A stretch of DNA of 64,000 nucleotides from Bacillus sp. DTU_2020_1000418_1_SI_GHA_SEK_038 (GTDB lineage Bacteria > Bacillota > Bacilli > Bacillales > Cytobacillaceae). This document shows positions 4,453 through 62,556 of this stretch, piece by piece; the stretch's first letter is position 1; every line of letters begins with the position of its first letter. A program made the translations under genes and the position numbers. The notes under the pieces were generated by a model. That model saw only the letters and a list, made by a program, of their open reading frames with translations. It was not told the DNA's origin and searched no databases. The stretch spans positions 1,116,001-1,180,000 of the forward strand of contig NZ_CP135435.1 of NCBI RefSeq assembly GCF_032341175.1, in the 5' to 3' direction.

Positions 4453-4457
4453 AAGGA

Positions 4458-4496
4458 TTAGGCGCTTTCCTGTAACAAGGATCAGCGCTAATTTTT
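4458..4496 (+). terminator. uppP terminator within a dispersed repeat
   Basis: TTAGGCGCT and AGCGCTAA pair around a 17-base loop and are followed by a T-run. The sequence belongs to a repeat family seen again near 10.67, 18.37 and 19.8 kb. Confidence 0.55.
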
Positions 4497-4587
4497 CATT
4501 ATAGGGCCACTAAACGGGCCATAGCAATTGTACCTATTTTAATATCTATTTTAAGTAAAGGGCAAAATTAATTTGGAGGGGTTTGAT

Positions 4588-5022: not shown

Positions 5023-5109
5023 GGACAGACGAGAAGGTAATTTTTCTACTGTAATCACTATTAGGGAAAGTGCATCGAAGCCCAGCTTTTTTAAACCGAG
5101 CTTACAAAT

Positions 5110-5277: not shown

Positions 5278-5657
5278 TTTTATCACCTCACCCTTAGATT
5301 ATTATACCATTGATCGCTAGTATGGTCCTTGTAAAAGACTGTACTTAAATTTTAGACACAGTTTAGTTTATGAAATTGTTAACATTTTAATAGAATTATT
5401 TACTTTTAGGAGGATCAAATTAGACCGGTTCCTGTCACTCTCCGATAAGTTAGATGCCGGAAACAGCAAATGGGAACTCTTTATTATTGTAATTAACACC
5501 TGCCTTCTTACACAACAAAGCATGTTACTCATTCTGTTTAAATATAATGAATGGGTATATATGTTTTTATTAATTAAAATTTCTCCAAAAAATTAAAGCT
5601 AAAAAAAGTTTGTTTTGGTAGAAATTTTTCTAAAAATAGATGATAGGTGGTAATGAA
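5278..5657. other. Intergenic region, 380 bp
   Basis: AT-rich spacer between the small membrane protein and the S9 peptidase. It holds an AGGAGG at about 5408 with no start codon behind it. The minus strand also holds a short coherent stretch ending HALLCKKAGVNYNNKEFPF with no usable start, possibly a gene remnant. No clear promoter or RNA structure was seen. Confidence 0.4.
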
Positions 5658-46387: not shown

Positions 46388-46475
46388 CCATTTTTGCCTC
46401 TATAGTCAAATAGACTGAATTGGGCTTAAATAAACTATAAGGATAATTTTAATATGAAGAAAGGATTTGCAAATT

Positions 46476-48152
46476 ATGGAATTTAGAATTAAAGATTTGT
46501 TGAAATTCCCTTCTCTTAAAGATGCAGTAGTTCTAAGTGGAAAAAATCATTTGAATAAAGTGATTAAGGGAACAACTATTATGGAAGCTCCAGATATAAC
46601 TAATTGGCTTACAGGGGGAGAATTAGTTTTAACAAGTCTTTATCCCGTTCGTAATTTTAGTGAAGAGGAGCATCATCAGTTTATTGCCCAGCTAGCTGAA
46701 AAAGGGGTAAGTGTATTAGTCATAAAAATTCACCGTTTTGTTTCGGAAATACCGATGTCCATCATAAATGCTGGGGAAAAATCGGGATTGACGATCATTC
46801 AGCTTCCAAAGGAAGTTCCCTATGTTGATGTCATGTATCCAGTCATGGGAGAACTATTTAATAATCAAGTAAAAAAGCTGCAATACTACAAGGAAATCCA
46901 TGATCGGTTTACAGAATTATCTCTAGCAGATGAAGGGCTGGAAAAAATCATAAAGACGTTGGAGCAGTTGATCGGCAATCCGGTCGCCCTCTTTGATCGC
47001 CATTTTCATTGTATTGAGACAACTTTTCCTTCCCTGACAGAATTTAAAATTATTGAGAAGGTTTCCTATTATAACCAAAAAGAAGGGATAAAATTTCCGC
47101 ACTACCGACAAATCGTTAAATATCCAGCTTTAAATGGACAAAAGGGATTCCAAATCGTTGTTCCAATAGAAACGATTAATCGTATAAAAACATATTTGCT
47201 AATTGGCGAATTTAATAAGCCGCTTCAGGAACTAGATTTAATTGCGGTTGAAAATTGTGCAATCTCTTTATCTCTTGAGTTAGTAAAACAATTTGCCGTG
47301 GCAGAAGTTAATAAAAAGTTTAAAAATGATTTAATTGATGAACTGATCGGCGGAAAAGTCCAGCAGATGAATGTAGTTTTTCAAAAGGCAAATGTCATTG
47401 GCTGGGATTTAAGTGGATCATTCGCAGCGGTTCTATTCAAAATTTCCTCAGAAAAAGATACAACTACCACTGATCAGAAGGAAAATAATCGAATTCTTTC
47501 CGTTCAAAATTATGAACTGGTGTATGAAGCCATTCACCATTATTTGCCCGATGGAATTATCCGAAGCAGAAGCGACTTCGTGATTGTCCTTTGGAAAATA
47601 AGTGATGGGGACTTAAAGGCTGGCAACTGGATGGATCATATTAAAGATACGGCAAGGAAAATCCAGATTTCTATAAAAAATCAATTAAAGGACAATTCCG
47701 TTCGGATTGGAATTGGCAGTTTACAAAAAAGCATAATGGAAATTCCCCAAAGTTTTAAAGAAGCTCAAGACGCCCTAGAAATAGGAGAAATTATTGGCGG
47801 CAAAGAAGCTATTACGGTGTTTTCTGAATTAGGGATTTTTCGTCTTTTATACAAATTAAATGACTCTGCCGTCTTAAGCAGCTTTATCCCACAATCATTG
47901 CAGAAGCTGCTCCATTACCAGCATGCTAATAAGAAGGACTTATTAATAACGCTGAAAACATTTTTGGAATGTAACCAAAATGCGACAAAAACATCTCAGA
48001 TTCTTTATATACACCAGAAAACAGCTGTCTATCGTTTGGAAAGAATAAAAGACATTACCGGGATGAATTTTGAAGACCCTGAGGAAATGTTATCTGTTCA
48101 AATAGGATTGAAAATTGTCGATATACTTAATCGAAAAGAGGCTGTCTTATAA
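46476..48152 (+). CDS. PucR-family regulator 2
   Basis: 558-residue second PucR-type regulator. The N-terminal purine catabolism domain is MEFRIKDLLKFPSLKDAVVL and TTIMEAPDITNWLTGGELVL; the helix-turn-helix near the end is NQNATKTSQILYIHQKTAVY. It shares little sequence with regulator 1, so they probably sense different intermediates. The start at 46476 has AAAGGA upstream. It stands between allB and allC on the same strand. The palindromic repeat copy 2 begins at its stop codon. Confidence 0.88.
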   Translation: MEFRIKDLLKFPSLKDAVVLSGKNHLNKVIKGTTIMEAPDITNWLTGGELVLTSLYPVRNFSEEEHHQFIAQLAEKGVSVLVIKIHRFVSEIPMSIINAGEKSGLTIIQLPKEVPYVDVMYPVMGELFNNQVKKLQYYKEIHDRFTELSLADEGLEKIIKTLEQLIGNPVALFDRHFHCIETTFPSLTEFKIIEKVSYYNQKEGIKFPHYRQIVKYPALNGQKGFQIVVPIETINRIKTYLLIGEFNKPLQELDLIAVENCAISLSLELVKQFAVAEVNKKFKNDLIDELIGGKVQQMNVVFQKANVIGWDLSGSFAAVLFKISSEKDTTTTDQKENNRILSVQNYELVYEAIHHYLPDGIIRSRSDFVIVLWKISDGDLKAGNWMDHIKDTARKIQISIKNQLKDNSVRIGIGSLQKSIMEIPQSFKEAQDALEIGEIIGGKEAITVFSELGIFRLLYKLNDSAVLSSFIPQSLQKLLHYQHANKKDLLITLKTFLECNQNATKTSQILYIHQKTAVYRLERIKDITGMNFEDPEEMLSVQIGLKIVDILNRKEAVL

Positions 48153-48230
48153 GGTGCCTGGCTCCACACTATACCAACATCTAGTTCTATTTTGGACACT
48201 AGATATTGAATGGTGGTGCCTGGCACCTTT
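48151..48230. repeat. GGTGCCTGGC palindromic repeat, copy 2
   Basis: An 80-base element with ends AAGGTGCCTGGCTCCAC and GTGGTGCCTGGCACCTTT. It overlaps the stop codon of pucR regulator 2 by two bases. It shares the ends and middle (CTATTTTGGACACTAGATA) with copy 1, 3.3 kb away. Confidence 0.85.
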
Positions 48231-48543
48231 GCATTGGGCAGCCTCTTTTCGTTCCTATTGCTCCACATAAAACCCGAGAAGTAATCCGAAATTTTCCAAA
48301 ACGGGCAAAAAACTTCATAACATACGCGGGAAAATTATCTGATATAGATAAAAAAATAAAAAATCCTTAGCCATTACGTATAAAGACTAACAGGCTTAAA
48401 AGGATTAAGATTAATACATATTGGTTGTAATTACATACCGACTCAAGGTTATATAGTAGTCTAATAAAAATCTCTTAAGTCACGAGCATAATAATGACTC
48501 AAAAGACAGACCTTATAGCTAGATTGAATAATTTTTTTATTAA
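48231..48543. other. Intergenic region, about 310 bp
   Basis: AT-rich spacer before the transporter-like remnant and allC. I compared it with the purine riboswitch pattern and did not find a match. No promoter could be assigned with confidence. Confidence 0.4.
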
Positions 48544-48718
48544 TTGGAAGCGCTTTTGCTGCGCTTAGTCAAGGAACCTATTATGGACCTGCATACCGGA
48601 AAGCAGGATTTTGGTTTTTATATTGCAATTATCATTCTCTTAATTGGATTTTTCTTAGTAAATTTAAGAAAACACCAGTTCAACAGTAAATTAGAACACC
48701 TAAGAAAGGAAGGTACAT
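48544..48718 (+). pseudogene. Possible transporter C-terminal remnant
   Basis: The frame opening at 48544 carries a hydrophobic segment, FGFYIAIIILLIGFFLVNLR, followed by a basic tail, like the last helix of an MFS or solute transporter. An overlapping frame before it reads GSAFAALSQGTYYGPAYRKA. This suggests a transporter gene with a frameshift and a lost 5' part. It ends at the allC start. It may also be chance reading; no ribosome site supports expression. Confidence 0.35.
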
Positions 48719-49984
48719 ATGACAGACGGTACACAAGAAAAATCTATGTCTGCCCTTAATGGGCTGGCAGAAGAAACAAGTGGAAAACTGGATTGGTTGA
48801 GCCAGTATGGCAAAGACCCTGAAGGTGGCGTAACCAGATTATTATACTCTAAAGAATGGGTAGACGCACAGCATGCATTGAAAGAATGGATGGAGAACGA
48901 AGGCCTAGAAGCCCGTTTTGATGAAATTGGTAATTTATTCGGAACTTTAAAAGGAAAAAATACAAATGAAACCGTTCTAACTGGTTCACATGTTGATTCC
49001 GTGAAAAACGCAGGTAAATATGATGGTCCTTACGGAATTGTCTCTGGGATTTTAGCGCTAAAATATTTAAAGCAAATATACGGAGAACCGCTTCGAAATA
49101 TTGAAGTCGTATCCATGGCAGAAGAAGAAGGAAGCCGATTCCCATATGCCTTCTGGGGTTCAAAAAACATCGTAGGATTAGCTAAACGTGAAGATGTAGA
49201 AAACATCAGTGACTTTGAGGGAATCCCATTTGTTGAAGCGATGAAAAACGCAGGTTTTGGTTTCAGAGACGAAACTAAGGAGCCGCGCAAAGATTTAAAA
49301 GCATTTGTTGAGGTTCATATAGAACAAGGAAGCGTGTTAGAAACTGAAAAGAAATCAGTAGGTGTTGTACACAGTATTGTTGGTCAACGAAGGTTTACTG
49401 TTGAAATAGTTGGAGAAGCTAACCACGCTGGAACTACTCCAATGGGATACAGAAAAGATGCTGTTTATGCGGCAAGCCAAATGATTTATGAAATGATTTC
49501 GATGGCAAGAAAGGTAGGAGACCCGCTTGTTGCAACAGTCGGCAAGATTGAAGTACTTCCAAACATCGTGAATGTTGTACCAGGGAAAGCGATCTTTACG
49601 ATTGATGTCCGACATACAGATAAAGCAGCGATTGAATCCTTCACTGATCAGCTTACTGCCAAGATTAATGAAGTTTCTAGAGATCATGGTGTAGAAACAA
49701 CGATTGATATGTGGATGGATGCTGATCCGGTTCCAATGGATCAAAAGGTTGTTGAACTTATTGAGAAACAATGTAAAGAAAATGGTCTTAACTACAAGTT
49801 AATGCACAGCGGTGCCGGACATGATTCACAGATTTTCGCTCCAGTCGTGCCAACAGCTATGCTATTCGTCCCTAGCTTAAAGGGAATTAGCCATAATCCA
49901 GCAGAGTTTACAGAGCCATCAGACTTGGCTGAAGGTGTTAAAGCACTGATTGGTGCCCTTTATGAATTAGGATATAAAGAATAA
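48719..49984 (+). CDS. allC: Allantoate amidohydrolase
   Basis: 421-residue M20-family zinc hydrolase that converts allantoate to ureidoglycine, CO2 and ammonia. Metal-site motifs are TGSHVDSVKNAGKYDGPYG (His, Asp), SMAEEEGSRFPYAFWGSKNI (Glu), VEVHIEQGSVLE (His) and LMHSGAGHDSQ (His). These match AllC rather than beta-ureidopropionase. AAAGGAAGG precedes the ATG. It is the first gene of the main downstream operon (allC-allE-allD-allD-fdrA-ylbE). Confidence 0.93.
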   Translation: MTDGTQEKSMSALNGLAEETSGKLDWLSQYGKDPEGGVTRLLYSKEWVDAQHALKEWMENEGLEARFDEIGNLFGTLKGKNTNETVLTGSHVDSVKNAGKYDGPYGIVSGILALKYLKQIYGEPLRNIEVVSMAEEEGSRFPYAFWGSKNIVGLAKREDVENISDFEGIPFVEAMKNAGFGFRDETKEPRKDLKAFVEVHIEQGSVLETEKKSVGVVHSIVGQRRFTVEIVGEANHAGTTPMGYRKDAVYAASQMIYEMISMARKVGDPLVATVGKIEVLPNIVNVVPGKAIFTIDVRHTDKAAIESFTDQLTAKINEVSRDHGVETTIDMWMDADPVPMDQKVVELIEKQCKENGLNYKLMHSGAGHDSQIFAPVVPTAMLFVPSLKGISHNPAEFTEPSDLAEGVKALIGALYELGYKE

Positions 49985-50065
49985 TTGATGTTTTTATCAG
50001 CTGCGTATAATTAGGTTTCATACCTTTTATAATAAAAAATTTTCAAAAAAGAGGAGAATGTATCG

Positions 50066-50830
50066 ATGGGTTATCCAAAAGATTTGCTTTCAAGTAGATC
50101 CATAATCAAACATGGTTTATATGCTTTAATCGCACCTGAAGGTCTTGTAAATAATGTAATTCCTGGATTTGAAAATTGCACAATGTCAATTTTAGGATCT
50201 CCGCAATTAGGTGCAACCTTTGTTGATTACATCGTTACAATGCACGAAGGCGGAAAGAATAGCCAAGGCTTCTGCGGACAAGCAGATGTTGAATCCTTTG
50301 TTTATGTTTTAGGCGGAAAAGTAAAAGCTAAAGCTGACGATCAAGAATTTGTCTTAGAGGAAAGCGGCTATTTATATTGCCCGCCAGGTGTGACAATGTA
50401 CTTAGAAAACATGGAAGCTGGCGATTCACGTCTATTCCTTTATAAACAAAAATACAAACCACTAGAAGGCAAGAAGCCTTGGGTTGTATCTGGTCATTCA
50501 AACGATATTGAATACAGAGACTACGATGATATGCACAATGTTCATATTAAAGATTTATTACCAATGGATATTGATTTTGATATGAACTTCCACATTTTAT
50601 CTTTCGACCCAGCGGCAAGCCATCCATTTATTGAAACACACTATCAACAACACGGGGCATACTTACTTTCTGGTGAAGGTATGTACAACCTAGATAATGA
50701 ATGGATTCCAGTTAAAAAAGGCGATTACATTTTCATGGGACCATATGTCCATCAAGCAGCTTATGCTGTTGGAAGAGAACCTTTAACATATGTTTATTCT
50801 AAAGATTGTAATCGGGATCCAGAATTATAA
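50066..50830 (+). CDS. allE: (S)-ureidoglycine aminohydrolase
   Basis: 254-residue bicupin that releases ammonia from (S)-ureidoglycine to give (S)-ureidoglycolate. Each half has a cupin barrel: first ESFVYVLGGKVKAKADDQEF, second ETHYQQHGAYLLSGEGMYNL and MGPYVHQAAYAVG. The C-terminal half carries the metal ligands (Glu and His residues around ETHYQQH and the later His). RBS GAGGAG lies upstream. Placement between allC and allD is the natural pathway order. Confidence 0.93.
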   Translation: MGYPKDLLSSRSIIKHGLYALIAPEGLVNNVIPGFENCTMSILGSPQLGATFVDYIVTMHEGGKNSQGFCGQADVESFVYVLGGKVKAKADDQEFVLEESGYLYCPPGVTMYLENMEAGDSRLFLYKQKYKPLEGKKPWVVSGHSNDIEYRDYDDMHNVHIKDLLPMDIDFDMNFHILSFDPAASHPFIETHYQQHGAYLLSGEGMYNLDNEWIPVKKGDYIFMGPYVHQAAYAVGREPLTYVYSKDCNRDPEL

Positions 50831-50854
50831 TAATCCCAACAAAGAGGTGTCACC

Positions 50855-51907
50855 ATGAGATTAAACAGAGAGGACTTGAAAAGTCTAATCAAAACAAAAC
50901 TGCATAAGGCTGGTCTTAAAGAGGACCATGCTGAAGCAGCAGCAGAAGTGCTCGTATTTGCAGATGAAAGAGGAATTCATTCCCACGGTGCAATGCGTGT
51001 AGAATATTATGCTGAAAGAATTGCTAAAGGCGGAATTAACACGAACCCTGAATTTAGATTTGAAAAGACAGGTCCTTGCTCAGGCGTTTTCCATGCTGAT
51101 GGCGGAAATGGTCATACAGCAGCTAAATTAGCAATGGATGAAGCCATTAAAATGGCAAAAGAAAACGGTATTGCTATTGTTGGTGTGAGAGATATGTCCC
51201 ATAGTGGAGCGATTTCTTACTTTACCCATCAAGCTGCACAGGCTGATCTTATTGGACTTTCTGTTTGTCAGTCCGATCCGATGGTTGTTCCATTTGGCGG
51301 GGCTGAGCCTTATTACGGCACTAACCCAATTGCTTTTGCTGCACCAAGTTCTGAAGAAGGAAAATTCATGACTTTAGATATGGCAACAACTGTTCAAGCT
51401 TGGGGGAAAATTCTTCATGCAAGATCAAAGAATGATTCGATTCCTGATACTTGGGCAGTAGATAAAAATGGCGAACCAACGACTGATCCTTTTAATGTGA
51501 ACGCACTATTGCCAATTGCTGGACCAAAAGGATACGGGCTTATGATGATGGTTGATGTTTTATCTGGTATTTTACTCGGACTTCCGTTTGGAAATAAAGT
51601 TTCTTCCATGTACGAAGATTTAACTGAATACCGTAAATTAGGTCAGCTGCATATTGTCATTAACCCTGAATTTTTCGGTGGTCTAGGTGGTTTCAAGAAA
51701 GACATTTCGCAATCGATGGATGACTTGAATCAGATTAAACCTGCTCCAGGCTTTTCAAAAGTTTTATACCCTGGGCAAAATAATGACGTTGTAATAGCTG
51801 AATATAAGGAAAATGGCATTGAAATTGTTGATGACATTTATGAGTATTTACGTTCTGATGTGATTCATAACAATCAATACGATCACAAAGACCCATTTGC
51901 TAAGTAA
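50855..51907 (+). CDS. allD: Ureidoglycolate dehydrogenase, copy 1
   Basis: 350-residue NAD(P)-dependent oxidoreductase of the LDH2/MDHG family that oxidises ureidoglycolate to oxalurate. The catalytic His region is GVRDMSHSGAISYF. Other marks are ADERGIHSHGAMRVEYYAER and PIAGPKGYGLMMMVDVLSG. AAAGAGGTG precedes the ATG. A close paralogue follows 42 bases downstream. It is embedded in the allantoin operon. Confidence 0.92.
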   Translation: MRLNREDLKSLIKTKLHKAGLKEDHAEAAAEVLVFADERGIHSHGAMRVEYYAERIAKGGINTNPEFRFEKTGPCSGVFHADGGNGHTAAKLAMDEAIKMAKENGIAIVGVRDMSHSGAISYFTHQAAQADLIGLSVCQSDPMVVPFGGAEPYYGTNPIAFAAPSSEEGKFMTLDMATTVQAWGKILHARSKNDSIPDTWAVDKNGEPTTDPFNVNALLPIAGPKGYGLMMMVDVLSGILLGLPFGNKVSSMYEDLTEYRKLGQLHIVINPEFFGGLGGFKKDISQSMDDLNQIKPAPGFSKVLYPGQNNDVVIAEYKENGIEIVDDIYEYLRSDVIHNNQYDHKDPFAK

Positions 51908-51949
51908 TAAAATAAACAGGTAACGATGAATTTTAAGGGGTGAGAGGGA

Positions 51950-52999
51950 ATGAGATTATCAAAAGAGCAATTGCACGATTTAATTGCTACAAAGCTTAAT
52001 AAGGCTGGATTAACAGAAGATCATGCTAGCGGAGTTGCAGATGTACTTGTACATGCAGATGCAAGAGGTGTTCACTCTCACGGCGCGATGAGAGTGGAAT
52101 ATTATGCTGAAAGAATTGCTAAAGGCGGACTAAATAATAATCCAAATTTCAAGTTTGAAAAAACGGGTCCATGTACAGCGATTTTCGATGGAGATAATGG
52201 AGTAGGCCATGTGGCAGCAAAGCTTGCAATGGATGAAGCGATTAAAATGGCAAAGGAAAATGGAGTTGCTGTGGTAGGTGTAAGTAGAATCGGCCATAGC
52301 GGTGCACTTTCTTACTTTGTTCAACAGGCTGCAAATGAAAATCTAGTTGGAATTTCAGTTTGTCAATCCGACCCGATGGTTGTTCCTTTTGGTGGATCAG
52401 AGCCTTATTACGGTACAAACCCAATTGCTTTTGCTGCACCAGGCAAGGACGGAGAGCACATTACTTTTGATATGGCGACAACTGTACAGGCTTGGGGGAA
52501 AATCCTTCATGCAAGATCGAAAAATGAATCCATTCCTGATACATGGGCTGTTGACAGCAATGGGGAACCGACAACGGATCCTTTTAAAGTAAATGCGTTA
52601 GTTCCGATTGCTGGTCCAAAGGGATACGGGCTCATGATGATGGTTGATGTTTTATCAGGTATCTTACTTGGCCTTCCGTTTGGAAATAAAGTTTCTTCCA
52701 TGTACCATGATCTCACTGAGTATCGTAATCTAGGACAGCTTCATATTGTTATCAATCCTGAGTTCTTTACAGGAATTAAAGGCTTCCAAGAGGATATTGC
52801 AACAACAATGAAAGACCTCAATAACATCAAGCCGGCCCCTGGCTTTGATCAAGTTTCTTACCCTGGGCAAAGAAGTGCTGAAAGGGAAAAGAAATATGAA
52901 GAGAACGGCATTGAAATTGTGGATCATATTTATGAGTATTTGACTTCAGATGTTGTTCACAACAATGCGTTCGACAATAAAAGCCCTTTTGCAAAATAA
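51950..52999 (+). CDS. allD: Ureidoglycolate dehydrogenase, copy 2
   Basis: 349-residue close paralogue of the preceding gene, sharing most positions. The His region here is GVSRIGHSGALSYF, and the same HSHGAMRVEYYAER and PIAGPKGYGLMMMVDVLSG stretches are present. The copies differ most in the C-terminal third (for example FTGIKGFQEDIATTMKDLNN here). One may have gained a different 2-hydroxyacid substrate. GGGGTGAGAGG lies upstream. A weak hairpin after it may reduce read-through to fdrA. Confidence 0.92.
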   Translation: MRLSKEQLHDLIATKLNKAGLTEDHASGVADVLVHADARGVHSHGAMRVEYYAERIAKGGLNNNPNFKFEKTGPCTAIFDGDNGVGHVAAKLAMDEAIKMAKENGVAVVGVSRIGHSGALSYFVQQAANENLVGISVCQSDPMVVPFGGSEPYYGTNPIAFAAPGKDGEHITFDMATTVQAWGKILHARSKNESIPDTWAVDSNGEPTTDPFKVNALVPIAGPKGYGLMMMVDVLSGILLGLPFGNKVSSMYHDLTEYRNLGQLHIVINPEFFTGIKGFQEDIATTMKDLNNIKPAPGFDQVSYPGQRSAEREKKYEENGIEIVDHIYEYLTSDVVHNNAFDNKSPFAK

Positions 53000-53017
53000 A
53001 AAAGAGTTAGAAAAATG

Positions 53018-53046
53018 AAGGGTGGTCTCCGAAAGTTGCCACCCTT
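53018..53046 (+). terminator. Weak internal hairpin
   Basis: AAGGGTGG and CCACCCTT form an 8-bp stem, followed by CTTCT rather than a T-run. It lies between the second allD and fdrA. Confidence 0.45.
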
Positions 53047-53124
53047 CTTCTATGGAAAGAAAATGTTTGAATTCAAAAACACTTTCGAAAAGTAAGAAAA
53101 AAATAAAAAGAGGTGCATGAAAAC

Positions 53125-54870
53125 ATGCTTTATACTATCGTCAAACAGAATTCATATCAGGATTCAGTTAACCTAATGCTTCTTACGAATAAAATCTCAA
53201 CAATGGAAGGCGTTAACAAAGTCCAAATTATGATGGGGACTCCTGCTAACAAAGATATTTTCAAGACTGCTGGTCTTTTCACGGAAGAGCTTGAAGGGGC
53301 AGCATCCAATGATATGTGTATCGTTGTTGACACTGATTCAGAAGAAAAGATTCAAGAAGTTCTTGATGAAGTAGATAACTATTTAAGCAACCAAGCAATC
53401 AGCAACAGCAAGGAAGCTTTTGAAACTGTACGTTCATGGGATAAAGCTACGCAAGCATTACCAGGTGCGAATCTTGCAATCATCTCTACACCAGGTCAAT
53501 ATGCTGCTGAAGAAGCAGAAAAAGCACTTGATAGAGATATGCACGTTTTAATTTTCAGTGACAATGTAACAATTGAAGATGAGCGTCGCATTAAAGAAAA
53601 AGCACATGAAAAAGGTCTTCTTGTTATGGGTCCTGACTGTGGTACTGCAGTTGTTTCTGGTGTTCCGCTTGCATTTGCAAACGTTGTGAAAACAGGAAAA
53701 ATTGGTGTAATTGGAGCTTCTGGAACAGGTATTCAAGAAGTTATTACAGAAATTGACCGTTTAGGCAGCGGTGTTAGCCATGCAATCGGTACTGGAGGCC
53801 GTGACCTCAATGATAAAATTGGCGCAATTACAATGTTAGATGGTATTAAGGCTTTAGCACAACATAGCCAAACAGAAGTCATCACATTGATTTCAAAACC
53901 ACCTGCAAAAGAAGTTCGTGATGAAGTTGTTCAATTACTTCAAAGCATTTCTAAGCCAGTTGTTGCGATTTTCCTTGGTGAAGAGCCACATAACCATGAA
54001 GGAAATGTTTATTATGCAAATACACTTGAAGAAACAGCAGCTATCGCTGTTGATCTTGCAAAAGGTAATGCAATCAAACCAAATTACAATACGCTTCAAG
54101 CTGAAGTACCTGCAGTAAACTTAAAGTATGAACAAAAAACAATTAAAGGTTTATATTCTGGCGGTACGCTTGGATATGAAGCAGCTACACTTATCAGCAG
54201 AGGACTTAACCTTGGAACAACAGATCATCATGAAGACGGTTATCTTTTAAATGCTAATGGATTTGAAGTAATTGACCTTGGTGATGATATTTATACACAA
54301 GGTAAACCGCATCCAATGATTGACCCAGATACAAGAATCCAATTCTTCCAAAAAGCAGCACAAGATGAATCAACAGCCATTATTTTATTTGATGTTGTAC
54401 TTGGATATGGTTCTCATGAAGATATGGCGGGAGCTCTTATTCCTGGCATCCAAAAAATTCAGAACGCTGCAAAAGAAAATGGCAGAAACATTTACTTTGT
54501 TGGAACTGTTTGTGGTACAGATCAAGACCCACAAGATATCGATGATCAAAAAGCAAAACTAGAACAAGCTGGCGTTATCTTACGTGATAGCAATAACCAA
54601 GCAGTTTTAACTGCTTTAGCAATGCTTGATATCCAAATTGAAGAAGTACAAAAAGAAGTAGTTTCTGCTAAAGATGCTGCGAATGCTAATATTGCGGTTT
54701 CAGAGGCAATCCAAAAATTATTAACAGAAAAACCAAATGTAGTTAACGTTGGATTAAAGAAATTTACAGATGCAATTACCGCAAACGGTGGAAGAGTTGT
54801 TCAATTTGACTGGCGTCCAGTTGCAGGCGGAAATCCAAGAATGCGTAAAATCTTAAGTGTACTTCGCTAA
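53125..54870 (+). CDS. fdrA: FdrA-type acyl-CoA synthetase-like protein (oxamate carbamoyltransferase component)
   Basis: 581-residue FdrA protein, related to succinyl-CoA synthetase alpha. CoA-ligase-like marks are GLLVMGPDCGTAVVSGVPLA, IGVIGASGTGIQEV and GTGGRDLND. In E. coli, fdrA (allF), ylbE (allG) and ylbF (allH) together encode oxamate carbamoyltransferase, which converts oxalurate and phosphate into oxamate and carbamoyl phosphate. A C-terminal extension of about 45 residues, VVNVGLKKFTDAITANGGRV and FDWRPVAGGN, looks like an extra module. The ATG at 53125 follows GAGGTG. Confidence 0.9.
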   Translation: MLYTIVKQNSYQDSVNLMLLTNKISTMEGVNKVQIMMGTPANKDIFKTAGLFTEELEGAASNDMCIVVDTDSEEKIQEVLDEVDNYLSNQAISNSKEAFETVRSWDKATQALPGANLAIISTPGQYAAEEAEKALDRDMHVLIFSDNVTIEDERRIKEKAHEKGLLVMGPDCGTAVVSGVPLAFANVVKTGKIGVIGASGTGIQEVITEIDRLGSGVSHAIGTGGRDLNDKIGAITMLDGIKALAQHSQTEVITLISKPPAKEVRDEVVQLLQSISKPVVAIFLGEEPHNHEGNVYYANTLEETAAIAVDLAKGNAIKPNYNTLQAEVPAVNLKYEQKTIKGLYSGGTLGYEAATLISRGLNLGTTDHHEDGYLLNANGFEVIDLGDDIYTQGKPHPMIDPDTRIQFFQKAAQDESTAIILFDVVLGYGSHEDMAGALIPGIQKIQNAAKENGRNIYFVGTVCGTDQDPQDIDDQKAKLEQAGVILRDSNNQAVLTALAMLDIQIEEVQKEVVSAKDAANANIAVSEAIQKLLTEKPNVVNVGLKKFTDAITANGGRVVQFDWRPVAGGNPRMRKILSVLR

Positions 54871-54933
54871 TCTAAGGAATATATCTAGAGAAACCGATTT
54901 ACACGACTAATGAATTTTCAGGAGGAAAGCATA

Positions 54934-56208
54934 ATGTACGGACAATATAAAACAATTGATGAAGCAAACCGAGCAGTTATCGATAAAGTAGTATCAAGCG
55001 CACCATTTTTAACAGATGTGGTTCCTGCTAAATCTGTTATTCAAGAGTTAAATGGAAAAGTATTACTTCATGCAGGACCACCAATTAAATGGGAAAACAT
55101 GACAAGCCCAATGCAAGGATCTTGTGTAGGAGCGGCCATTTTTGAAGGCTGGGCATCAAACGCTGATGAAGCATTTGCGATGCTTAAAAATGGAGAAATA
55201 GAATTCATTCCTTGTCACCACGTTAATGCGGTTGGTCCAATGGGTGGTATCACATCTGGAAGTATGCCGGTTTTAGTTGTAGAAAATCGTGACGGCGGCA
55301 ATCAAGCATATTGTACAATGAATGAAGGAATTGGTGCAGTTCTACGTTTCGGTGCATATTCTGAGGAAGTAATTAACCGTCTTGGATGGTTCAGAGATGT
55401 ACTAGGACCTGTTATTTCAAAAGCACTTAAAGTAAAAGGCGATGGGTTAAACGTAAACGTAGCGATTGCAAAAGCAATTACGATGGGTGATGAGTTCCAT
55501 CAACGTAATATCGCTGGTTCACTTATTTTCTTAAAGGACATCGCTCCATACATTCTACAATCAGATGCAGATGAAAAAGATAAGCTTGATGTAATCCAAT
55601 TCTTAGCTGATACAGACCAATTCTTCTTAAATATTGCGATGGCAACAAGTAAAGCAGTTATGGATACAGCAAGAGAAATTCAGCATGGTACAGTTGTAAC
55701 AGCAATGTGCCGTAATGGATATGAATTCGGAATCCGTATTGCGGGTATGGGTGATCAATGGTTTACAGCACCTGTTAATACACCACAAGGCCTATTCTTT
55801 ACAGGATATGATCAAGATATGGCTTGCCCTGATATGGGTGACAGTGCGATCACTGAAACATTCGGTGTTGGCGGTATGGCTATGATCGCTGCTCCTGGTG
55901 TTACTCGCTTCGTTGGTGCAGGCGGTATGGACGATGCAGTTACCACAAGTAACGATATGATGGAAATTTGTATTGATCATAATTCTAACTTCTCTATCCC
56001 AACTTGGGATTTCAAAGGCTCTTGCCTAGGAATTGACGCAAGAAAAGTTGTTGAAACTGGAATCGAGCCGGTTATCAACACTGGTATTGCTCATAAAGAA
56101 GCTGGAGTTGGACAAATCGGTGCTGGTACCGTTCGTGCTCCATTAGCTTGCTTCGAAAAAGCAATCGATGCTTATGCAGTTAAACTTGGGTTAATTGACC
56201 CTCAATAA
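54934..56208 (+). CDS. ylbE: YlbE-type DUF1116 protein (oxamate carbamoyltransferase component)
   Basis: 424-residue DUF1116 protein closely resembling E. coli YlbE (AllG). Shared segments are LLHAGPPIKWENMTSPMQGS, IPCHHVNAVGPMGGITSGSM, ITMGDEFHQRNIAGSL and INTGIAHKEAGVGQIGAGTV. It pairs with FdrA in the enzyme that makes carbamoyl phosphate from oxalurate. The third E. coli component (YlbF/AllH) and the carbamate kinase are not downstream: a terminator follows at 56232, then a lipoprotein gene. AGGAGG lies before the ATG. Confidence 0.92.
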   Translation: MYGQYKTIDEANRAVIDKVVSSAPFLTDVVPAKSVIQELNGKVLLHAGPPIKWENMTSPMQGSCVGAAIFEGWASNADEAFAMLKNGEIEFIPCHHVNAVGPMGGITSGSMPVLVVENRDGGNQAYCTMNEGIGAVLRFGAYSEEVINRLGWFRDVLGPVISKALKVKGDGLNVNVAIAKAITMGDEFHQRNIAGSLIFLKDIAPYILQSDADEKDKLDVIQFLADTDQFFLNIAMATSKAVMDTAREIQHGTVVTAMCRNGYEFGIRIAGMGDQWFTAPVNTPQGLFFTGYDQDMACPDMGDSAITETFGVGGMAMIAAPGVTRFVGAGGMDDAVTTSNDMMEICIDHNSNFSIPTWDFKGSCLGIDARKVVETGIEPVINTGIAHKEAGVGQIGAGTVRAPLACFEKAIDAYAVKLGLIDPQ

Positions 56209-57419: not shown

Positions 57420-57645
57420 TTAATTTATAGGGGAATTTGGATAGGTTAACTCGAACTCTGTCAGAAACCCTATTATTTGAAAAGTTTACAAGAATTAAAA
57501 GAACATAAATACTTTTTAATTCAATTAATGGAAAAAAACAGCGATAACTGAGGTCTAAATTAGTCATTTTTCTAAATGTTATTGACAATATGAATAAATG
57601 AGGGTAAAGTTTGTACTTAAGGAAATTGAAAAATTAAATAGTTTA
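57420..57645. other. Intergenic region upstream of the SAM riboswitch
   Basis: AT-rich spacer. TTGACA occurs near 57582, but a clear -10 at proper spacing was not decided by eye. No gene is recognised. Confidence 0.4.
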
Positions 57646-57756
57646 TCTCTTATCAAGAGTAGCTGAGGGACTGGCCCGATGAAGCTCGGCAACCGTCTAT
57701 GTAAATAGATTGGTGCTAAATCCTGCAAAACATTTATTGTTTTGGAAGATAAGAGA
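57646..57756 (+). promoter_or_regulatory. SAM-I riboswitch (S-box)
   Basis: S-box aptamer: P1 CTCTTATC/GATAAGAG, then AGAGTAGCTGAGGGACTGGC, CCGATGAAGCTCGGCAACC and later GGTGCTAAATCCTGC. These are the conserved elements of the SAM-I class. Binding of S-adenosylmethionine would favour the terminator at 57778 and switch the operon off when SAM is plentiful. Confidence 0.95.
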
Positions 57757-57777
57757 GGATTTTATGTATAAATACAG

Positions 57778-57808
57778 AAGCCTCTCTTTTTTGATAGAGA
57801 GGCTTTTT
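57778..57808 (+). terminator. Riboswitch-controlled terminator
   Basis: AAGCCTCTCT and AGAGAGGCTT (10-bp stem) followed by TTTTT. Sequence just after P1 (GAGAGG) could compete in an antiterminator. Confidence 0.85.
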
Positions 57809-57852
57809 AATATTTTCTTCTTCCAATATAACTACACAGGGGGAACCTCGAA

Positions 57853-58659
57853 ATGAAGAAGCTTGGATTGTTTTTAGCATTATTTGGAATGACATTATTT
57901 ATTGCCGCATGCAGTAAAGAAAGCGGCGGCGAACTGAACGATAAGAAGCTAGTCATTGGAGCAACGGACGGTCCGCATGCTCAAATATTAGAAGTTGTTA
58001 AAGAAGTGGCTGCAGAAGACGGACTTGAGCTGGAAATTAAACCTTTTACTGACTACGTGCTTCCAAATACAGCGTTAGATGAAGGCGACTTAGATGTGAA
58101 CAGCTATCAGCATAAACCTTTTCTTGAAAAATTTAATGATGACCATGGAACTGATTTAGTCCCAGTTGGGAAAACGATTCTTAATCCAATGGGCATATAC
58201 TCTGAAACATATAAAAGCTTTGATGACCTGCCAGACGGAGCAAAGTTCGGTTTGCCAAACGATCCGACAAATGGATCACGTGCACTCTTCATCTTACAAG
58301 AAAATGGCTACATTAAGCTTGAAGAAGGAAAAGAAGAAACAGCCTCTATTCATGATGTAGTGGAAAATCCAAAGAATCTTGAGTTCATTGAGCTTGACGC
58401 AGCACAAATTCCAAAACAATTAAGCGAAGTCGATGCTGCAGCCATTAATACAAATTTTGCAATCGCTGCGGGTCTTTATCCGAAAGAAGATGCATTTATT
58501 TTAGAATCAACAAACTCTCCATATGTGAACTATATTGTAGTTAGAGCGGAAAACGAAAACGATCCTGTTGTTAAAAAATTGGTAGAGGCTTACCAAAACG
58601 ATAAGGTGAAAAAGTTCATTGAAGAAGAATTCCGCGGATCAATCATACCTGGTTTTTAA
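57853..58659 (+). CDS. metQ: Methionine ABC transporter substrate-binding lipoprotein
   Basis: 268-residue MetQ/NlpA-type lipoprotein. The lipobox is LFIAACS. The mature part has LVIGATDGPHAQILEVVKEV, VNSYQHKPFLEKFNDDHGTD and VDAAAINTNFAIAAGL, which are typical. It captures methionine (D or L) or a related thioether outside the membrane. It is the first gene after the SAM riboswitch, so it is repressed by SAM. GGGGGAAC precedes the ATG. Confidence 0.93.
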   Translation: MKKLGLFLALFGMTLFIAACSKESGGELNDKKLVIGATDGPHAQILEVVKEVAAEDGLELEIKPFTDYVLPNTALDEGDLDVNSYQHKPFLEKFNDDHGTDLVPVGKTILNPMGIYSETYKSFDDLPDGAKFGLPNDPTNGSRALFILQENGYIKLEEGKEETASIHDVVENPKNLEFIELDAAQIPKQLSEVDAAAINTNFAIAAGLYPKEDAFILESTNSPYVNYIVVRAENENDPVVKKLVEAYQNDKVKKFIEEEFRGSIIPGF

Positions 58660-58693
58660 TTAGGTAAAGAAAGCATAGAAAGGAAAAGTCCCC

Positions 58694-59707
58694 ATGATTT
58701 TATTAGAACACGTTTCAAAATCCTTTGAGTCGAAAAAAGGGATTGTCAAAGCAGTTAAAGATGTGAATCTTCATGTGAAAAAAGGTGAAATTCATGGGGT
58801 GATCGGCTATAGCGGTGCTGGTAAGAGCACATTGATACGCTGTGTAAATTTATTGGAGAAACCTACTAGCGGAAAAGTATTTATAGGCGGCAAAGAAGCT
58901 ACTTCTTTGCCGCTCAACCAATTACGCGATGTCCGAAAAAGAATCGGCATGATTTTCCAGGGATTCAACCTCTTAAAAACAGCTACCGTTTATGATAATA
59001 TCGCCATCCCCCTTAAATTATTAGGTTACAGCAAGACGGAAACAAATGAACGTGTGATTAAATATTTAGATATTGTTGGACTGGCTGATAAACATCAATC
59101 GTTTCCAAGCCAACTTTCCGGCGGGCAAAAGCAAAGGGTCGCGATTGCACGTGCACTTGCACAGGAGCCCGAGGTATTACTAAGTGATGAAGCAACAAGT
59201 GCCCTTGATCCTGAGACAACGGATTCCATTTTGGATTTACTTTTAAAAATTAATCAAGAACTAGGGATTACTATTTTGCTGATTACACATGAAATGAATG
59301 TTATCCAAAAAATCTGTGACCATGTATCTGTAATGGAAAATGGTGAAGTTGTTGAACAAGGCTCGACAATTGATTTATTTACAAAGCCTCAGCAGCAGAC
59401 TACGAAAAAGTTCTTAAATACAATCAGTCAGCGGAAGCTGTCACCTTCATTAATTAGCCAGCTTAATGTAACCGGCAAGGTTTCCCGACTCACTTTTGTC
59501 GGAGAAAGTACAGGGCAACCGCTTCTGGCTAAAGTAAGTCAGCAATTTAAAGTTCAGCCCAATATTTTAACAGCGAATATTCTAGAATTGAAAAACGGTA
59601 TTGTCGGCAATATTGTTGTCCATCTCATTGGTGAACAGCATGATGTGGATGATTCATTGACGTATTTACAAAACCATGGTGTAGGCATCGAGGAATTGGA
59701 GGGATAA
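58694..59707 (+). CDS. metN: Methionine ABC transporter ATP-binding protein
   Basis: 337-residue ABC ATPase. Walker A is GYSGAGKST, signature is LSGGQKQRVAIARAL, Walker B is VLLSDEATSALD, and the switch His is in LITHEMN. A C-terminal ACT-like NIL domain (about 260-337, GIVGNIVVHLIGEQHDVDD) is typical of MetN and senses methionine to block the importer. AGGAAAAG precedes the ATG. It is 34 bases after metQ. Confidence 0.94.
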   Translation: MILLEHVSKSFESKKGIVKAVKDVNLHVKKGEIHGVIGYSGAGKSTLIRCVNLLEKPTSGKVFIGGKEATSLPLNQLRDVRKRIGMIFQGFNLLKTATVYDNIAIPLKLLGYSKTETNERVIKYLDIVGLADKHQSFPSQLSGGQKQRVAIARALAQEPEVLLSDEATSALDPETTDSILDLLLKINQELGITILLITHEMNVIQKICDHVSVMENGEVVEQGSTIDLFTKPQQQTTKKFLNTISQRKLSPSLISQLNVTGKVSRLTFVGESTGQPLLAKVSQQFKVQPNILTANILELKNGIVGNIVVHLIGEQHDVDDSLTYLQNHGVGIEELEG

Positions 59708-59711
59708 TATT

Positions 59712-60374
59712 ATGTCTGAATTTATTGATAAATGGTTTCCGATTGTCTGGAAATCTGTGCTGGAAACCTTCCAAATGGTTGGCGTTTCCATGGTATTCGC
59801 TATCATAATCGGTATCCCTTTAGGGGTATTGCTCGTGTTAACACGTCCTGGCCAAGCTTGGCAAAATCAATGGATCTATCAAATATTAAATCTAGTCATT
59901 AATATTTTGCGCTCAGTTCCATTTATTATTTTATTAATTTTCATTTTTCCATTTACAAAATTCATTGTTGGCACAACGATTGGCGTACAAGGTGCCATTG
60001 TTCCACTTGTTATTTACACAGCACCATATCTTGCAAGATTAGTAGAATCATCTCTTCTTTCCGTTGATAATGGCGTATTGGAAGCCTATAAGGCAATGGG
60101 AATTAAAACGAGACAAATTATTTGGCATGTAATGCTTCGTGAAGCGAGGCCATCCCTTGTCCTCGCTTTAACCATCACCATTGTCAGCTTGATTGGTGCT
60201 ACTGCGATGGCTGGACTTGTTGGTGCTGGCGGTCTTGGGGATTTAGCCTACCGTTATGGGCATTTACGCTACGAAGAAAGTGTCATGTATGCAACTGTTA
60301 TCATCCTGATTATTCTTGTACAAAGCTGTCAGTCTATTGGTAACCGTATCTCAGCTCGTTTAAAGAAAGATTGA
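59712..60374 (+). CDS. metI: Methionine ABC transporter permease
   Basis: 220-residue MetI permease with about five membrane segments. The cytoplasmic EAA-like loop reads EAYKAMGIKTRQIIWHVMLR, and TIVSLIGATAMAGLVGAGGL is the family's conserved end region. It starts four bases after metN ends, so the two are coupled. With MetQ and MetN it forms the importer. Confidence 0.94.
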   Translation: MSEFIDKWFPIVWKSVLETFQMVGVSMVFAIIIGIPLGVLLVLTRPGQAWQNQWIYQILNLVINILRSVPFIILLIFIFPFTKFIVGTTIGVQGAIVPLVIYTAPYLARLVESSLLSVDNGVLEAYKAMGIKTRQIIWHVMLREARPSLVLALTITIVSLIGATAMAGLVGAGGLGDLAYRYGHLRYEESVMYATVIILIILVQSCQSIGNRISARLKKD

Positions 60375-60390
60375 TAGGAGAGAGGAACAT

Positions 60391-61167
60391 ATGTCAAACG
60401 AACTTTATGTAGAAAAAGATGGAGCGATTGCTTCCCTCATCATCAACCGTTCTCATAAAAAGAATTCATTTACTCTTGCCATGTTTCAAAAGCTTGGCGA
60501 GTTATTAGATGAGCTGGAACAAGATAAGAGCGTGAAAGTGCTGATTATCCGTGGTGTTGATGATACAGCTTTTTCAGCGGGTGCCGATATTACCGAGTTT
60601 CTAGAAGTGCGTCTTCATGCGGAGAAGGCAAAGGCCTATAATGATTACGCCTTGGAGTCGATTGAAAAATTGTATCGGTTTTCCAAACCAACGATTGCCC
60701 TGATTAAAACATTAGCAATCGGAGGAGGACTGGAACTTGCGAACTCATGTGATTTCCGGTTTGCCTCTGCTGGGAGCAAGGTAGGAATTACAGCTGCGAA
60801 TATTGGCATTGTATACAATTTATCAAGTACAAAAAGACTTTATAATTTGATAGGCCCTTCAAAAACGAAGGAGCTGCTATATACAGCTAAGCTGATTAGT
60901 GCAGAACGAGGCCAAGAAATTGGTTTAATTGATTATGTTTACCCAATTGAAGAAATTGAGGAGAAATGCCTTGATTTTGCCGATAGAATTAAGGTGAAAT
61001 CATCTGTTGCCAACGCCGGCATTAAGAAAGTCATCCAAGCCATTATTGATGGAGAGAACGAAGAAAGTGACTATATTGAAAATGTCATTTTAGAATCATA
61101 CAGCTCTGATGATTATATGGAGGGCATTCAGGCGTTTTTGGAAAAAAGAAAACCGAATTTCTCGTAA
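60391..61167 (+). CDS. Atypical enoyl-CoA hydratase/isomerase-family protein
   Basis: 258-residue crotonase-fold protein. The first oxyanion-hole segment is TAFSAGADITEF, the second is IGGGLELANSCDFRFA. The first catalytic Glu (Glu115) is present. The position of the second, about 20 residues later, is Ala135 (KVGITAANIGIVYNLSSTKR), where true hydratases have Glu in a QPEI-like motif. Activity is therefore probably not simple enoyl-CoA hydration; decarboxylase, isomerase or another thioester reaction is possible. It lies 16 bases after metI in the SAM riboswitch operon. AGGAGAGAGG precedes the ATG. Confidence 0.88.
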   Translation: MSNELYVEKDGAIASLIINRSHKKNSFTLAMFQKLGELLDELEQDKSVKVLIIRGVDDTAFSAGADITEFLEVRLHAEKAKAYNDYALESIEKLYRFSKPTIALIKTLAIGGGLELANSCDFRFASAGSKVGITAANIGIVYNLSSTKRLYNLIGPSKTKELLYTAKLISAERGQEIGLIDYVYPIEEIEEKCLDFADRIKVKSSVANAGIKKVIQAIIDGENEESDYIENVILESYSSDDYMEGIQAFLEKRKPNFS

Positions 61168-61187
61168 GGAAAAGGAGTCTTTACATC

Positions 61188-62378
61188 ATGAATCAAGCAT
61201 TAGAAGGAATGAAAGTAATCGACCTATCACAAGTTTTAGCAGGTCCATATTGCACGATGGTTCTTGGTGATATGGGTGCTGATGTCATCAAAATTGAAAA
61301 ATATCCAAAGGGCGATGACACCCGGTTAATGGGTGCTGCGATTAACGAAGAAAGTTATATGTATATGATGGTCAATCGTAATAAACGTGGCATGTGTCTC
61401 AATTTAAAAAGTGAAGAAGGCCGCAACATATTACTTGACCTAATCAAAACCGCAGATGTTTTTATAGAAAATTATCGCCCTGGCGTAACAAAAAAATTGG
61501 GCATTGACTATGAAACATTGAAAGAAATTAATCCTGGATTAATCTACTGCTCGATTTCGGGCTACGGACAGACTGGCTCCTATAGTAAAAAGGGCGGCTA
61601 TGATATTATGGCACAAGGCATGTCAGGGCTGATGGATATGACTGGTGAAAAAGGTGGAAAGCCTGTAAAAGTAGGGATTGCCATTCATGATATCGCTGCA
61701 GCACAAACCGCCATTCAATCAATTTTAACTGCATACATCCACCGTTTAAGAAATGGAAAAGGTCAATATATCGATGTTTCCCTTGTTAATGCAGGACTTG
61801 CCTGGACTGTTTGGGAGGCTGCTGCTTATTTTGGAACAGGAGAAGTGGCAAAACGGAATGGAACAGCACACCGGGCATCTGCTCCATATCAAGGCTACGA
61901 AACCAAAGATGGTTTTATATTAATTGGAGCAGCCAATCAGAAGCTATGGGAAAATTTTTGCTTAAACGTAGTCGATAAACCTCACTGGTTAGAAGATCCC
62001 CGCTACGAAACGGTTAGCTTGAGAACAGAACATGTAGATGAACTTGAAGTCGAAATCGAGGGAATTTTAAAACAAAAAGATTCTGCATACTGGCTGAAAC
62101 TTCTTGAAGAAAACGGAATCCCATCAGGTCCGATCTATTCTTATGATCAAACTTTGAATGATCCGCATATCCTCGAACATGAAATGGTCCTTGAATATGA
62201 GCATCCTGCCGTTGGACAAATGAAAACACTTGGCTTCCCTGCTAAATTTTCCGAAACTCCGGGCCAATTAAGAATGCCTGCCCCGCTCCTTGGACAGCAC
62301 AATAAGGAGATTTTGACCGCACTAGGATATTCTGATGAAGAATATGAAGCTTTAAGAGAGAAAGAAGTTATTAAGTAA
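61188..62378 (+). CDS. CaiB/BaiF family CoA-transferase
   Basis: 396-residue family III CoA-transferase. The CoA-binding start is LEGMKVIDLSQVLAGPYCTM; the catalytic Asp is Asp168 in KVGIAIHDIAAAQTAI. Other marks are IENYRPGVTKKLGIDYETLK and SGYGQTGSYSKKGGYDIMAQ. It moves CoA between carboxylic acids such as formyl, oxalyl, succinyl or other acyl groups. It starts 20 bases after the crotonase and ends the SAM riboswitch operon. Donor and acceptor acids are not known. AAAAGGAG precedes the ATG. Confidence 0.9.
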   Translation: MNQALEGMKVIDLSQVLAGPYCTMVLGDMGADVIKIEKYPKGDDTRLMGAAINEESYMYMMVNRNKRGMCLNLKSEEGRNILLDLIKTADVFIENYRPGVTKKLGIDYETLKEINPGLIYCSISGYGQTGSYSKKGGYDIMAQGMSGLMDMTGEKGGKPVKVGIAIHDIAAAQTAIQSILTAYIHRLRNGKGQYIDVSLVNAGLAWTVWEAAAYFGTGEVAKRNGTAHRASAPYQGYETKDGFILIGAANQKLWENFCLNVVDKPHWLEDPRYETVSLRTEHVDELEVEIEGILKQKDSAYWLKLLEENGIPSGPIYSYDQTLNDPHILEHEMVLEYEHPAVGQMKTLGFPAKFSETPGQLRMPAPLLGQHNKEILTALGYSDEEYEALREKEVIK

Positions 62379-62521
62379 CGCGAAGGGGACGAATCTCTTG
62401 CTTCCAAATTTCAAAGCATCAAGGATTCAAGGAAATTCATATAAAGATCTGTAGACGAAAATTATCATAATGCAGTAAACGAAGATCGAGAACATCTAAA
62501 CTTTCATCCATAATAGTAATG

Positions 62522-62556
62522 AAAGGCAACTAACCCTTTGGGCGTTGCCTTTTTAC
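62522..62556 (+). terminator. Terminator of the SAM riboswitch operon
   Basis: AAAGGCAAC and GTTGCCTTT form a 9-bp stem followed by TTT. It is about 140 bases after the CoA-transferase stop. Confidence 0.8.

Follow-up and report, generated by a model that had tools for sequence, protein, structure and literature searches.

A SAM-riboswitch operon in Bacilli that unites a methionine-type importer with a crotonase and a CoA-transferase, and a possible salvage route for a methionine-shaped acid

The S-box operon and its importer

The window (the whole 64,000-nt stretch of DNA that was analysed) contains an S-box followed by three genes of a methionine-type ABC importer and two genes for CoA enzymes (Table 1). 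The match to RF00162 (94.3 bits; gathering cut-off 44.4; E 2.3e-21) is the only Rfam match at gathering level in the window, and eight S-boxes above the RF00162 cut-off exist in the whole genome. The fold around the riboswitch terminator stem has a z-score of -4.8. According to the sequence folds, the 3' arm of the aptamer could alternatively pair with the 5' arm of the terminator as an antiterminator, and both the terminator and the antiterminator fold seem possible in the S-box sequence. Just upstream a promoter-like site was found; across the region such sites are no commoner than expected by chance (17 sites, shuffle mean 15.0). The hairpin behind the last gene, which is absent from the list of the consensus terminator scan, has a fold z-score of -3.1 and is a likely operon terminator. 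This arrangement of an S-box with its terminator, metQ-metN-metI, the two CoA-enzyme genes and one end hairpin had been proposed in a sequence-only reading of this DNA, and was borne out by the Rfam scan, the ORFs, the protein families and the folds. The gaps of 16 and 20 bases that it gave in front of the two CoA-enzyme genes also match the ORF coordinates.

Table 1. Features of the operon region, with positions in the window.
Feature	Position	Strand	Basis
Promoter-like site TTGACA-17-TAAAGT, just 5' of the S-box	57582-57610	+	10/12 consensus match
SAM riboswitch aptamer (S-box, RF00162)	57647-57755	+	covariance-model match
Riboswitch terminator stem and T run	57776-57807	+	terminator scan, folding
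metQ, methionine-type binding lipoprotein	57853-58659	+	ORF; Lipoprotein_9
metN, ABC ATPase with NIL domain	58694-59707	+	ORF; ABC_tran+NIL
metI, ABC permease	59712-60374	+	ORF; BPD_transp_1
Crotonase-fold protein without Glu164 equivalent	60391-61167	+	ORF; ECH_1
Family III (CaiB/BaiF) CoA-transferase	61188-62378	+	ORF; CoA_transf_3
Hairpin and T run, likely operon terminator	62516-62556	+	folding

Two MetQ/MetI subfamily models exceed their cut-offs (TIGR00363, 231.1 vs 228.85 bits; NF008049, 219.7 vs 212 bits), as does the NIL domain PF09383 in MetN (71.5 vs 24), while the MetN equivalog TIGR02314 (373 vs 499.7) and the MetQ model NF008285 (238.5 vs 374) stay below theirs. The methionine-binding residues of E. 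coli MetQ, as given in the accessible part of PMC6739813, were used as reference for the pocket, in a table that does not contain L030. R156, N213, N238, Y81 and H100 are identical in the present MetQ, and F98 and Y103 are replaced by Tyr and Phe, respectively. Thus, the three residues that hold the alpha-amino and carboxyl groups of methionine (R, N, N) are kept. A second metQ is located elsewhere in the same genome, in an ordinary metNIQ operon behind its own S-box, and therefore the importer described here is an extra one.

An atypical crotonase and a family III CoA-transferase

In hydratase-type crotonases the second catalytic glutamate handles the alpha proton. The two glutamates, which we take to be Glu144 and Glu164 in rat enoyl-CoA hydratase, are not both present in the protein encoded here: Glu115 is kept, and Ala135 aligns with the second. 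The alignment therefore confirms the atypical site with Ala135 that had been noticed in the sequence-only reading. At T134, A135, N137, Y142 and N143 the E. coli methylmalonyl-CoA decarboxylase ScpB has T, P, N, Y and N, and the site pattern of that enzyme (no Glu164, but Thr and Tyr, presumably numbered Thr132 and Tyr140) is found in the crotonase. The residue which we take to be His66 of ScpB is not kept and corresponds to Ala65. In an alignment of 70 rows (58 of 80 loci and 12 others), Glu at position 135 is always accompanied by Pro at 142; in the 26 rows with Tyr at 142, Glu never occurs at 135. We conclude that the second glutamate is missing because the crotonase belongs to the Tyr-site group, like the E. 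coli decarboxylase. At the position of the first glutamate all 14 met-linked rows have Glu or Asp, and a residual acid/base function may thus have been retained.

Scores alone do not single out the decarboxylase. The NCBI decarboxylase model NF008506 gives 153.3 bits (cut-off 257) and generic hydratase models score higher, up to 220.9 bits, also below cut-off; the identity is 31% to ScpB and 29% to the hydratase PaaF. All nearest relatives among the matches listed carry names of the enoyl-CoA hydratase kind in their sources. In a tree of 42 of the 70 alignment rows, the met-linked crotonases form one clade (support 100/99) that lies within a group of relatives whose loci lack metQNI; ScpB is on a very long branch, which makes its placement unsure. 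A plain hydratase was rejected, since active site and tree group differ. Structural modelling of the crotonase, which had been suggested as a check, confirmed the fold, while nothing beyond the fold could be gained from the model and the fold searches (an initial model with 17 sequences and pLDDT 76 was set aside). The solved structures ranked first, 4olq, 4wcz and 4k2n, have putative or family-only titles, and neither structure aligner lists methylmalonyl-CoA decarboxylase within its best 50 matches. By sequence the decarboxylase is matched with E 8.9e-31, below many hydratases. By analogy to methylmalonyl-CoA decarboxylase, the crotonase, which does not have the acid/base pair of hydratases, would catalyse a reaction via an enolate, most likely a decarboxylation.

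The CoA-transferase matches PF02515 over its full length (residues 5-372; 455.4 vs 23.3 bits). Among the matches listed no substrate-specific model reaches its cut-off; the nearest solved sequence is a succinate-hydroxymethylglutarate CoA-transferase. The met-linked CoA-transferases, too, group together (support 87/99).

A comparable described pairing is that of the E. coli Scp pathway, in which the genes of the decarboxylase ScpB and of the propionyl-CoA:succinate CoA-transferase ScpC also adjoin each other, and in which the crotonase likewise lacks Glu164 and has a Thr/Asn/Tyr/Asn site. However, the protein described here falls below the cut-off of the ScpB family, its activity is predicted, and no mutase belongs to the set. 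Moreover, the transferase is of family III, unlike ScpC, which presumably belongs to another CoA-transferase family.

Conservation of the gene set and its relatives

To follow the set in other genomes, 24 distinct loci chosen by crotonase similarity were compared (L142, L143, L148 and L150 were counted as duplicates of the genomes of L027, L028, L030 and L033). All five genes, metQ, metN, metI, crotonase and CoA-transferase, are found together in 22 of them, and an S-box above cut-off is located upstream in 17. The Rfam scan, from which L034, L112, L114, L116 and L118 were left out, detected no S-box in the other seven, and so the presence of these genes together is not tied to SAM control. 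A weak sub-gathering S-box considered in L141 was rejected, as there was none at E up to 1 in its positions 3000-7000. Loci of the Brevibacillus type have no S-box and an altered MetQ pocket. In L145 the same set stands under an S-box in shuffled order and with a second metQ within it. In two even draws, crotonases with E up to 1e-80 were present in 7 of 397 and 11 of 398 genomes, two of which were shared; in the resulting 16 genomes, metQNI beside the crotonase is intact in 15 and decayed in one. The enzyme pair is thus conserved with the importer in other genomes, although the sequence-only reading could have failed at this point, and a chance neighbourhood is ruled out. These data support that importer and CoA enzymes belong together in one S-box operon.

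In 19 of the 24 loci the set also includes a gene for an FMN alpha-hydroxy-acid oxidase. This gene of about 1.15 kb, between crotonase and CoA-transferase in relatives, had been considered as a hidden acyl-CoA dehydrogenase. Its best PDB match is lactate 2-monooxygenase with 284.8 bits (doubled lactate-oxidase constructs, which score twice, were excluded), and the next other enzyme is 4-hydroxymandelate oxidase with 260.2 bits. In the genome of the window no match to the oxidase was detected at E 1e-10. An acyl-CoA dehydrogenase was not found inside the set, the only additional genes being the oxidase and the extra metQ of L145, and the intergenic gaps in the compared loci leave no room for a DmdC-like one. 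A transaminase gene, which we take to be mtnE-like, adjoins the set in eight loci only. Compared to the S-box metNIQ (metNPQ) uptake operon of Bacillales, with which it shares riboswitch and terminator, MetQ-MetN-MetI and the methionine head-group residues, the present set is extended by the two CoA enzymes and, where present, by the oxidase.

Related pairs without metQNI have carbon-catabolic neighbours. Among 20 weaker family matches (L003-L022) a CoA-transferase is nearby in 17, within the stretch examined, and larger stretches were examined for nine of these matches. In other genomes the related pair sits with genes for the tripartite tricarboxylate transporter TctABC and for a GlcDF-type dehydrogenase; GlcD and GlcF genes were found beside it in five of the nine larger loci (L112-L116), and a LarA-like racemase gene near it in L112, L113 and L114. 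These clusters share with the present set related versions of both enzymes and the coupling to 2-hydroxy-acid dehydrogenase genes, but they differ in the transporter, in the FAD and FeS dehydrogenase subunits, in their GntR and sigma-54 regulators and in the absence of metQNI. No S-box was detected in the three that were scanned (L113, L115 and L111, the latter of the same kind without GlcDF).

A possible route to methionine and its alternatives

Based on these observations, we tentatively favour the view that the operon may encode a SAM-controlled salvage route for a methionine-shaped acid, involving the transfer of CoA and a crotonase reaction of the decarboxylase type. At low SAM levels the riboswitch would permit readthrough, as its family match and folds suggest. 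The additional importer may then take up a methionine-shaped hydroxy or dicarboxylic acid; because the MetQ head-group site is kept, this acid should have an alpha-amino or alpha-hydroxy group and a carboxyl group. The CoA-transferase could load CoA onto the carboxyl of the acid or of its metabolite, the crotonase would most likely decarboxylate the ester like methylmalonyl-CoA decarboxylase, and the transferase might recover CoA from the product, so that both enzymes would form a CoA-transfer/decarboxylation cycle. Where the oxidase is present, it may convert a 2-hydroxy acid, probably 2-hydroxy-4-methylthiobutanoate, to the keto acid of methionine, which the adjoining transaminase, presumably mtnE-like, could turn into methionine. 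Since a match to the oxidase is absent from the present genome, either another enzyme would act there or the route would end earlier. We know of no natural methylthio malonate, and this counts against the proposed route. More doubtful still is the wider proposal of an undescribed Bacilli pathway, in which methionine would be made under SAM-riboswitch control from a carboxylated or hydroxylated analogue by this cycle and subsequent 2-hydroxy-acid oxidation, and which might have been recruited from a TctABC-linked hydroxy-acid pathway by addition of a methionine-type importer.

S-box operons are used for assigning genes to methionine metabolism. The recurring set with CoA enzymes points to an undescribed way to obtain methionine or its sulfur in scarcity, and together with the oxidase it suggests a yet unnamed compound as the source of methionine in some Bacilli. 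The short gene list and the testable importer provide means to find this compound, and a genomic context is gained for a group of crotonases without the hydratase glutamate. In titles and abstract openings of the papers listed we found no description of the operon; subscription journals and supplements were outside this search, and an earlier mention is possible. The accessible part of PMC3766115 states that SAM-riboswitch genes of various kinds, from Bacillales and other groups, are likely to function in cysteine and methionine metabolism.

The sequence-only reading had suggested salvage of a thioether acid by cleavage of the dimethylsulfoniopropionate (DMSP) or methylthiopropionate type; the S-box operon uniting importer and CoA enzymes finds support, while the cleavage as stated does not. 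In such a route a 3-methylthiopropionate-like acid would be charged with CoA, the crotonase would eliminate methanethiol, and methionine would be rebuilt from it; the acid might perhaps come from the methionine hydroxy analogue if the FMN oxidase worked as a lactate 2-monooxygenase, in line with its best PDB match. The DMSP demethylation pathway DmdBCD also combines CoA activation with a crotonase on a sulfur acid, but it has an acyl-CoA dehydrogenase and a ligase, whereas the present set lacks the former and has a CoA-transferase and an atypical crotonase site. A gene behind an S-box elsewhere in the genome, which we take to be O-acetylhomoserine sulfhydrylase-like, would fit the rebuilding step, and crotonase-family proteins are required for growth on 3,3'-thiodipropionate according to the accessible part of PMC6370202. 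Plain methylthiopropionate has no alpha-amino group, while MetQ keeps the site for it, so cleavage is not supported as stated. The glutamate for the alpha proton is also missing, the crotonase site being decarboxylase-like, and a detour through methanethiol would be wasteful, as one oxidation and one transamination already give methionine. We therefore consider thioether cleavage improbable; a DMSP-type reaction is possible and less supported than the decarboxylation route.

It is very unlikely that CoA-transferase and crotonase epimerise a D 2-hydroxy acid as its CoA ester for an L-specific FMN oxidase. The set does often include an oxidase from the L-2-hydroxy-acid family, and the LarA-like gene lies near TctABC-linked pairs, but the pair present alongside LarA does not replace it, the present genome has the pair without a match to such an oxidase, and we know of no crotonase that epimerises a 2-hydroxyacyl-CoA. 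Alternatively, the CoA pair could serve an unrelated carbon source and merely share one transcript with a plain methionine importer, as the catabolic neighbours of related pairs and the Brevibacillus-type loci might suggest. This, too, seems unlikely to us: SAM control of a carbon route makes little sense, the oxidase joins the same set, and the genes stay together in 22 of 24 loci, in one of these even in shuffled order.

The S-box operon and its conserved gene set

The SAM riboswitch (S-box, RF00162) and its terminator are followed on the plus strand by metQ, metN and metI and then by genes for a crotonase-fold protein and a family III CoA-transferase, with intergenic gaps of 34, 4, 16 and 20 bases. 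Fold analysis of the sequence indicates that the 5' arm of the terminator can alternatively pair with the 3' arm of the aptamer. The sequence-only reading had described this operon correctly, and Pfam placed all five proteins in the families it had named.

Coordinates in the window and in loci from other genomes (L-numbers)
Feature	Location	Strand	Remark
SAM riboswitch	window 57647-57755	+	94.3 bits, cut-off 44.4; one in the window
Riboswitch terminator	window 57776-57807	+	downstream of aptamer
End hairpin with T run	window 62516-62556	+	from fold analysis; absent from the consensus scan's list
Row reading like an allantoin/ureidoglycolate route	window 46467-56208
Operon lacking metN and metI	L025:5808-8998		Oceanobacillus sojae; S-box, metQ, crotonase, CoA-transferase present
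Decayed operon	L154:6560-8275		metQ, metN, metI fragments, then open crotonase frame
Operon with two MetQs	L145:2283-6847		one S-box
Further metQ-like gene	L140:2605-3414		downstream of operon; altered pocket (H100 to Thr)
PCC-domain gene (PF03479)	L024:3536-4054		same place in 11 other loci
ZTP riboswitch	L028:3358-3435	-	upstream, opposite strand

We collected 24 distinct loci, including that of the window, by their crotonase (at least 52% identical to the window's) and not by its neighbours. They came from a named-genome scan and from genomes drawn evenly within the order and the class (397 and 398, E up to 1e-80), with one further genome contributed by the family search. The five genes form a single cluster in 22 loci, the exceptions being L025 and the decayed L154, in whose fetched stretch no CoA-transferase match was found. 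An S-box above the cut-off lies upstream of the set in 17 of the 24 loci scanned and was not found in L032, L141, L147 and L151-L154; by eye, a T-run hairpin was read between the aptamer and metQ in each of 16 S-box loci (all but L140). L145 retains the gene set in a changed order (S-box, metQ, metN, metI, oxidase, second metQ, crotonase, CoA-transferase). We take this conservation as strong evidence that importer and enzymes work together. The main inference drawn earlier, that a CoA route under SAM control goes with the importer, is strengthened.

The binding pocket of MetQ

Elsewhere in this genome, a metNIQ operon behind its own S-box encodes a second MetQ (43% identical), so the importer accompanying the CoA enzymes is an extra one. 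As described for Neisseria MetQ (PMC6739813), R156, N213 and N238 hold the amino and carboxyl groups of methionine, and Y81, F98, H100 and Y103 surround its thioether. The window's MetQ keeps R156, N213, N238, Y81 and H100, whereas F98 is replaced by Tyr and Y103 by Phe; these residues recur in the first MetQ of each of the 16 tabulated S-box loci and in that of L141, which is without S-box. Because the head-group residues are kept, the ligand likely carries an amino-acid or hydroxy-acid head group. In the Brevibacillus-type loci without S-box (L032, L147, L151-L153) the Arg and both Asn are also kept, Y81 is replaced by Phe and H100 by Ser or Thr, and this MetQ may take a ligand with a different side chain.

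The second MetQ of L145 has Phe at Y81, F98 and Y103; with His100 kept, its pocket stands between the two types, and the other MetQ of this locus has the S-box-type pocket. Perhaps the two supply one permease with two ligands.

The oxidase and the enzyme pair in other contexts

An FMN-dependent alpha-hydroxy-acid oxidase (PF01070) belongs to the set in 19 of the 24 loci and is not in that of the window, L023, L025, L141 and L151; the window's genome gave no oxidase match at E 1e-10. Its gene directly follows that of the crotonase in 18 loci, precedes that of the CoA-transferase wherever the latter is kept and, exceptionally, precedes the second metQ in L145. All seven aligned oxidases have the His-Gly-Gly-Arg motif, which we take to be catalytic. 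The oxidase reaches no equivalog cut-off; its best solved relative, doubled lactate-oxidase constructs left aside, is lactate 2-monooxygenase, with 4-hydroxymandelate oxidase and hydroxyacid oxidase 1 ranking behind it. In eight of the 24 loci the set has as neighbour a gene for a PRK08068-group transaminase (672.9 bits, cut-off 494), presumably mtnE. A divergent PCC-domain gene precedes the S-box in 12 loci, all with the oxidase, a co-occurrence which kinship among them may explain.

Since the CoA-transferases from metQNI loci also form one group in the tree (support 87/99), crotonase and CoA-transferase probably travel together. Nine larger loci (L110-L118) from the same bacterial family have crotonases of 39-48% identity. 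Six of them (L111-L116) combine the pair with genes for TctC, for TctA and for a hexapeptide protein; glcD- and glcF-like genes are added in five of these (L112-L116), and a larA-like gene, above the cut-off in L113, in three (L112-L114). L110 has the pair without any of these genes, and the fetched stretches of L117 and L118 gave no such CoA-transferase. On an actinobacterial contig (L034) the pair accompanies TctA and TctC. Judged by these gene neighbourhoods, the pair is coupled twice to 2-hydroxy-acid oxidation, through unrelated oxidases, and also to two unrelated transporters. We regard the S-box set as an offshoot of a TctABC-linked pathway, refitted for a methionine-shaped compound.

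In L112-L116 the order glcD-glcF-GntR-CoA-transferase-crotonase-tctC-tctA-hexapeptide protein is conserved behind a sigma-54-type regulator gene, a putative hydroxy-acid route in the same bacterial family.

Possible function

The sequence-level evidence covers the switch, the short-gap gene order, the conserved set, the MetQ pocket and the atypical crotonase site. On our preferred reading, low SAM would turn the operon on and the importer would take up a methionine-shaped hydroxy or dicarboxylic acid. CoA-transferase and crotonase would run a CoA-transfer/decarboxylation cycle, which has precedent in oxalate metabolism or in Scp metabolism (the E. coli pathway with methylmalonyl-CoA decarboxylase ScpB). 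The oxidase would convert 2-hydroxy-4-methylthiobutanoate to the keto acid of methionine, and the transaminase would take the last step to methionine. We propose this whole chain tentatively, at somewhat below an even chance.

The specific chemistry suggested earlier, cleavage of an imported thioether acid for its sulfur, is probably not right, and we consider cleavage with methanethiol release unlikely. Equally doubtful is that the CoA pair is an unrelated passenger, a view to be set against the set conserved even in L145. That the enzymes invert hydroxy acids seems more improbable still.

In the allantoin-like row elsewhere in the window, AllG has a PF06545 match; the translations presumably include a PucR-like regulator, an amidohydrolase, an AllE-like cupin, two tandem AllD-like dehydrogenases and an FdrA-like protein.
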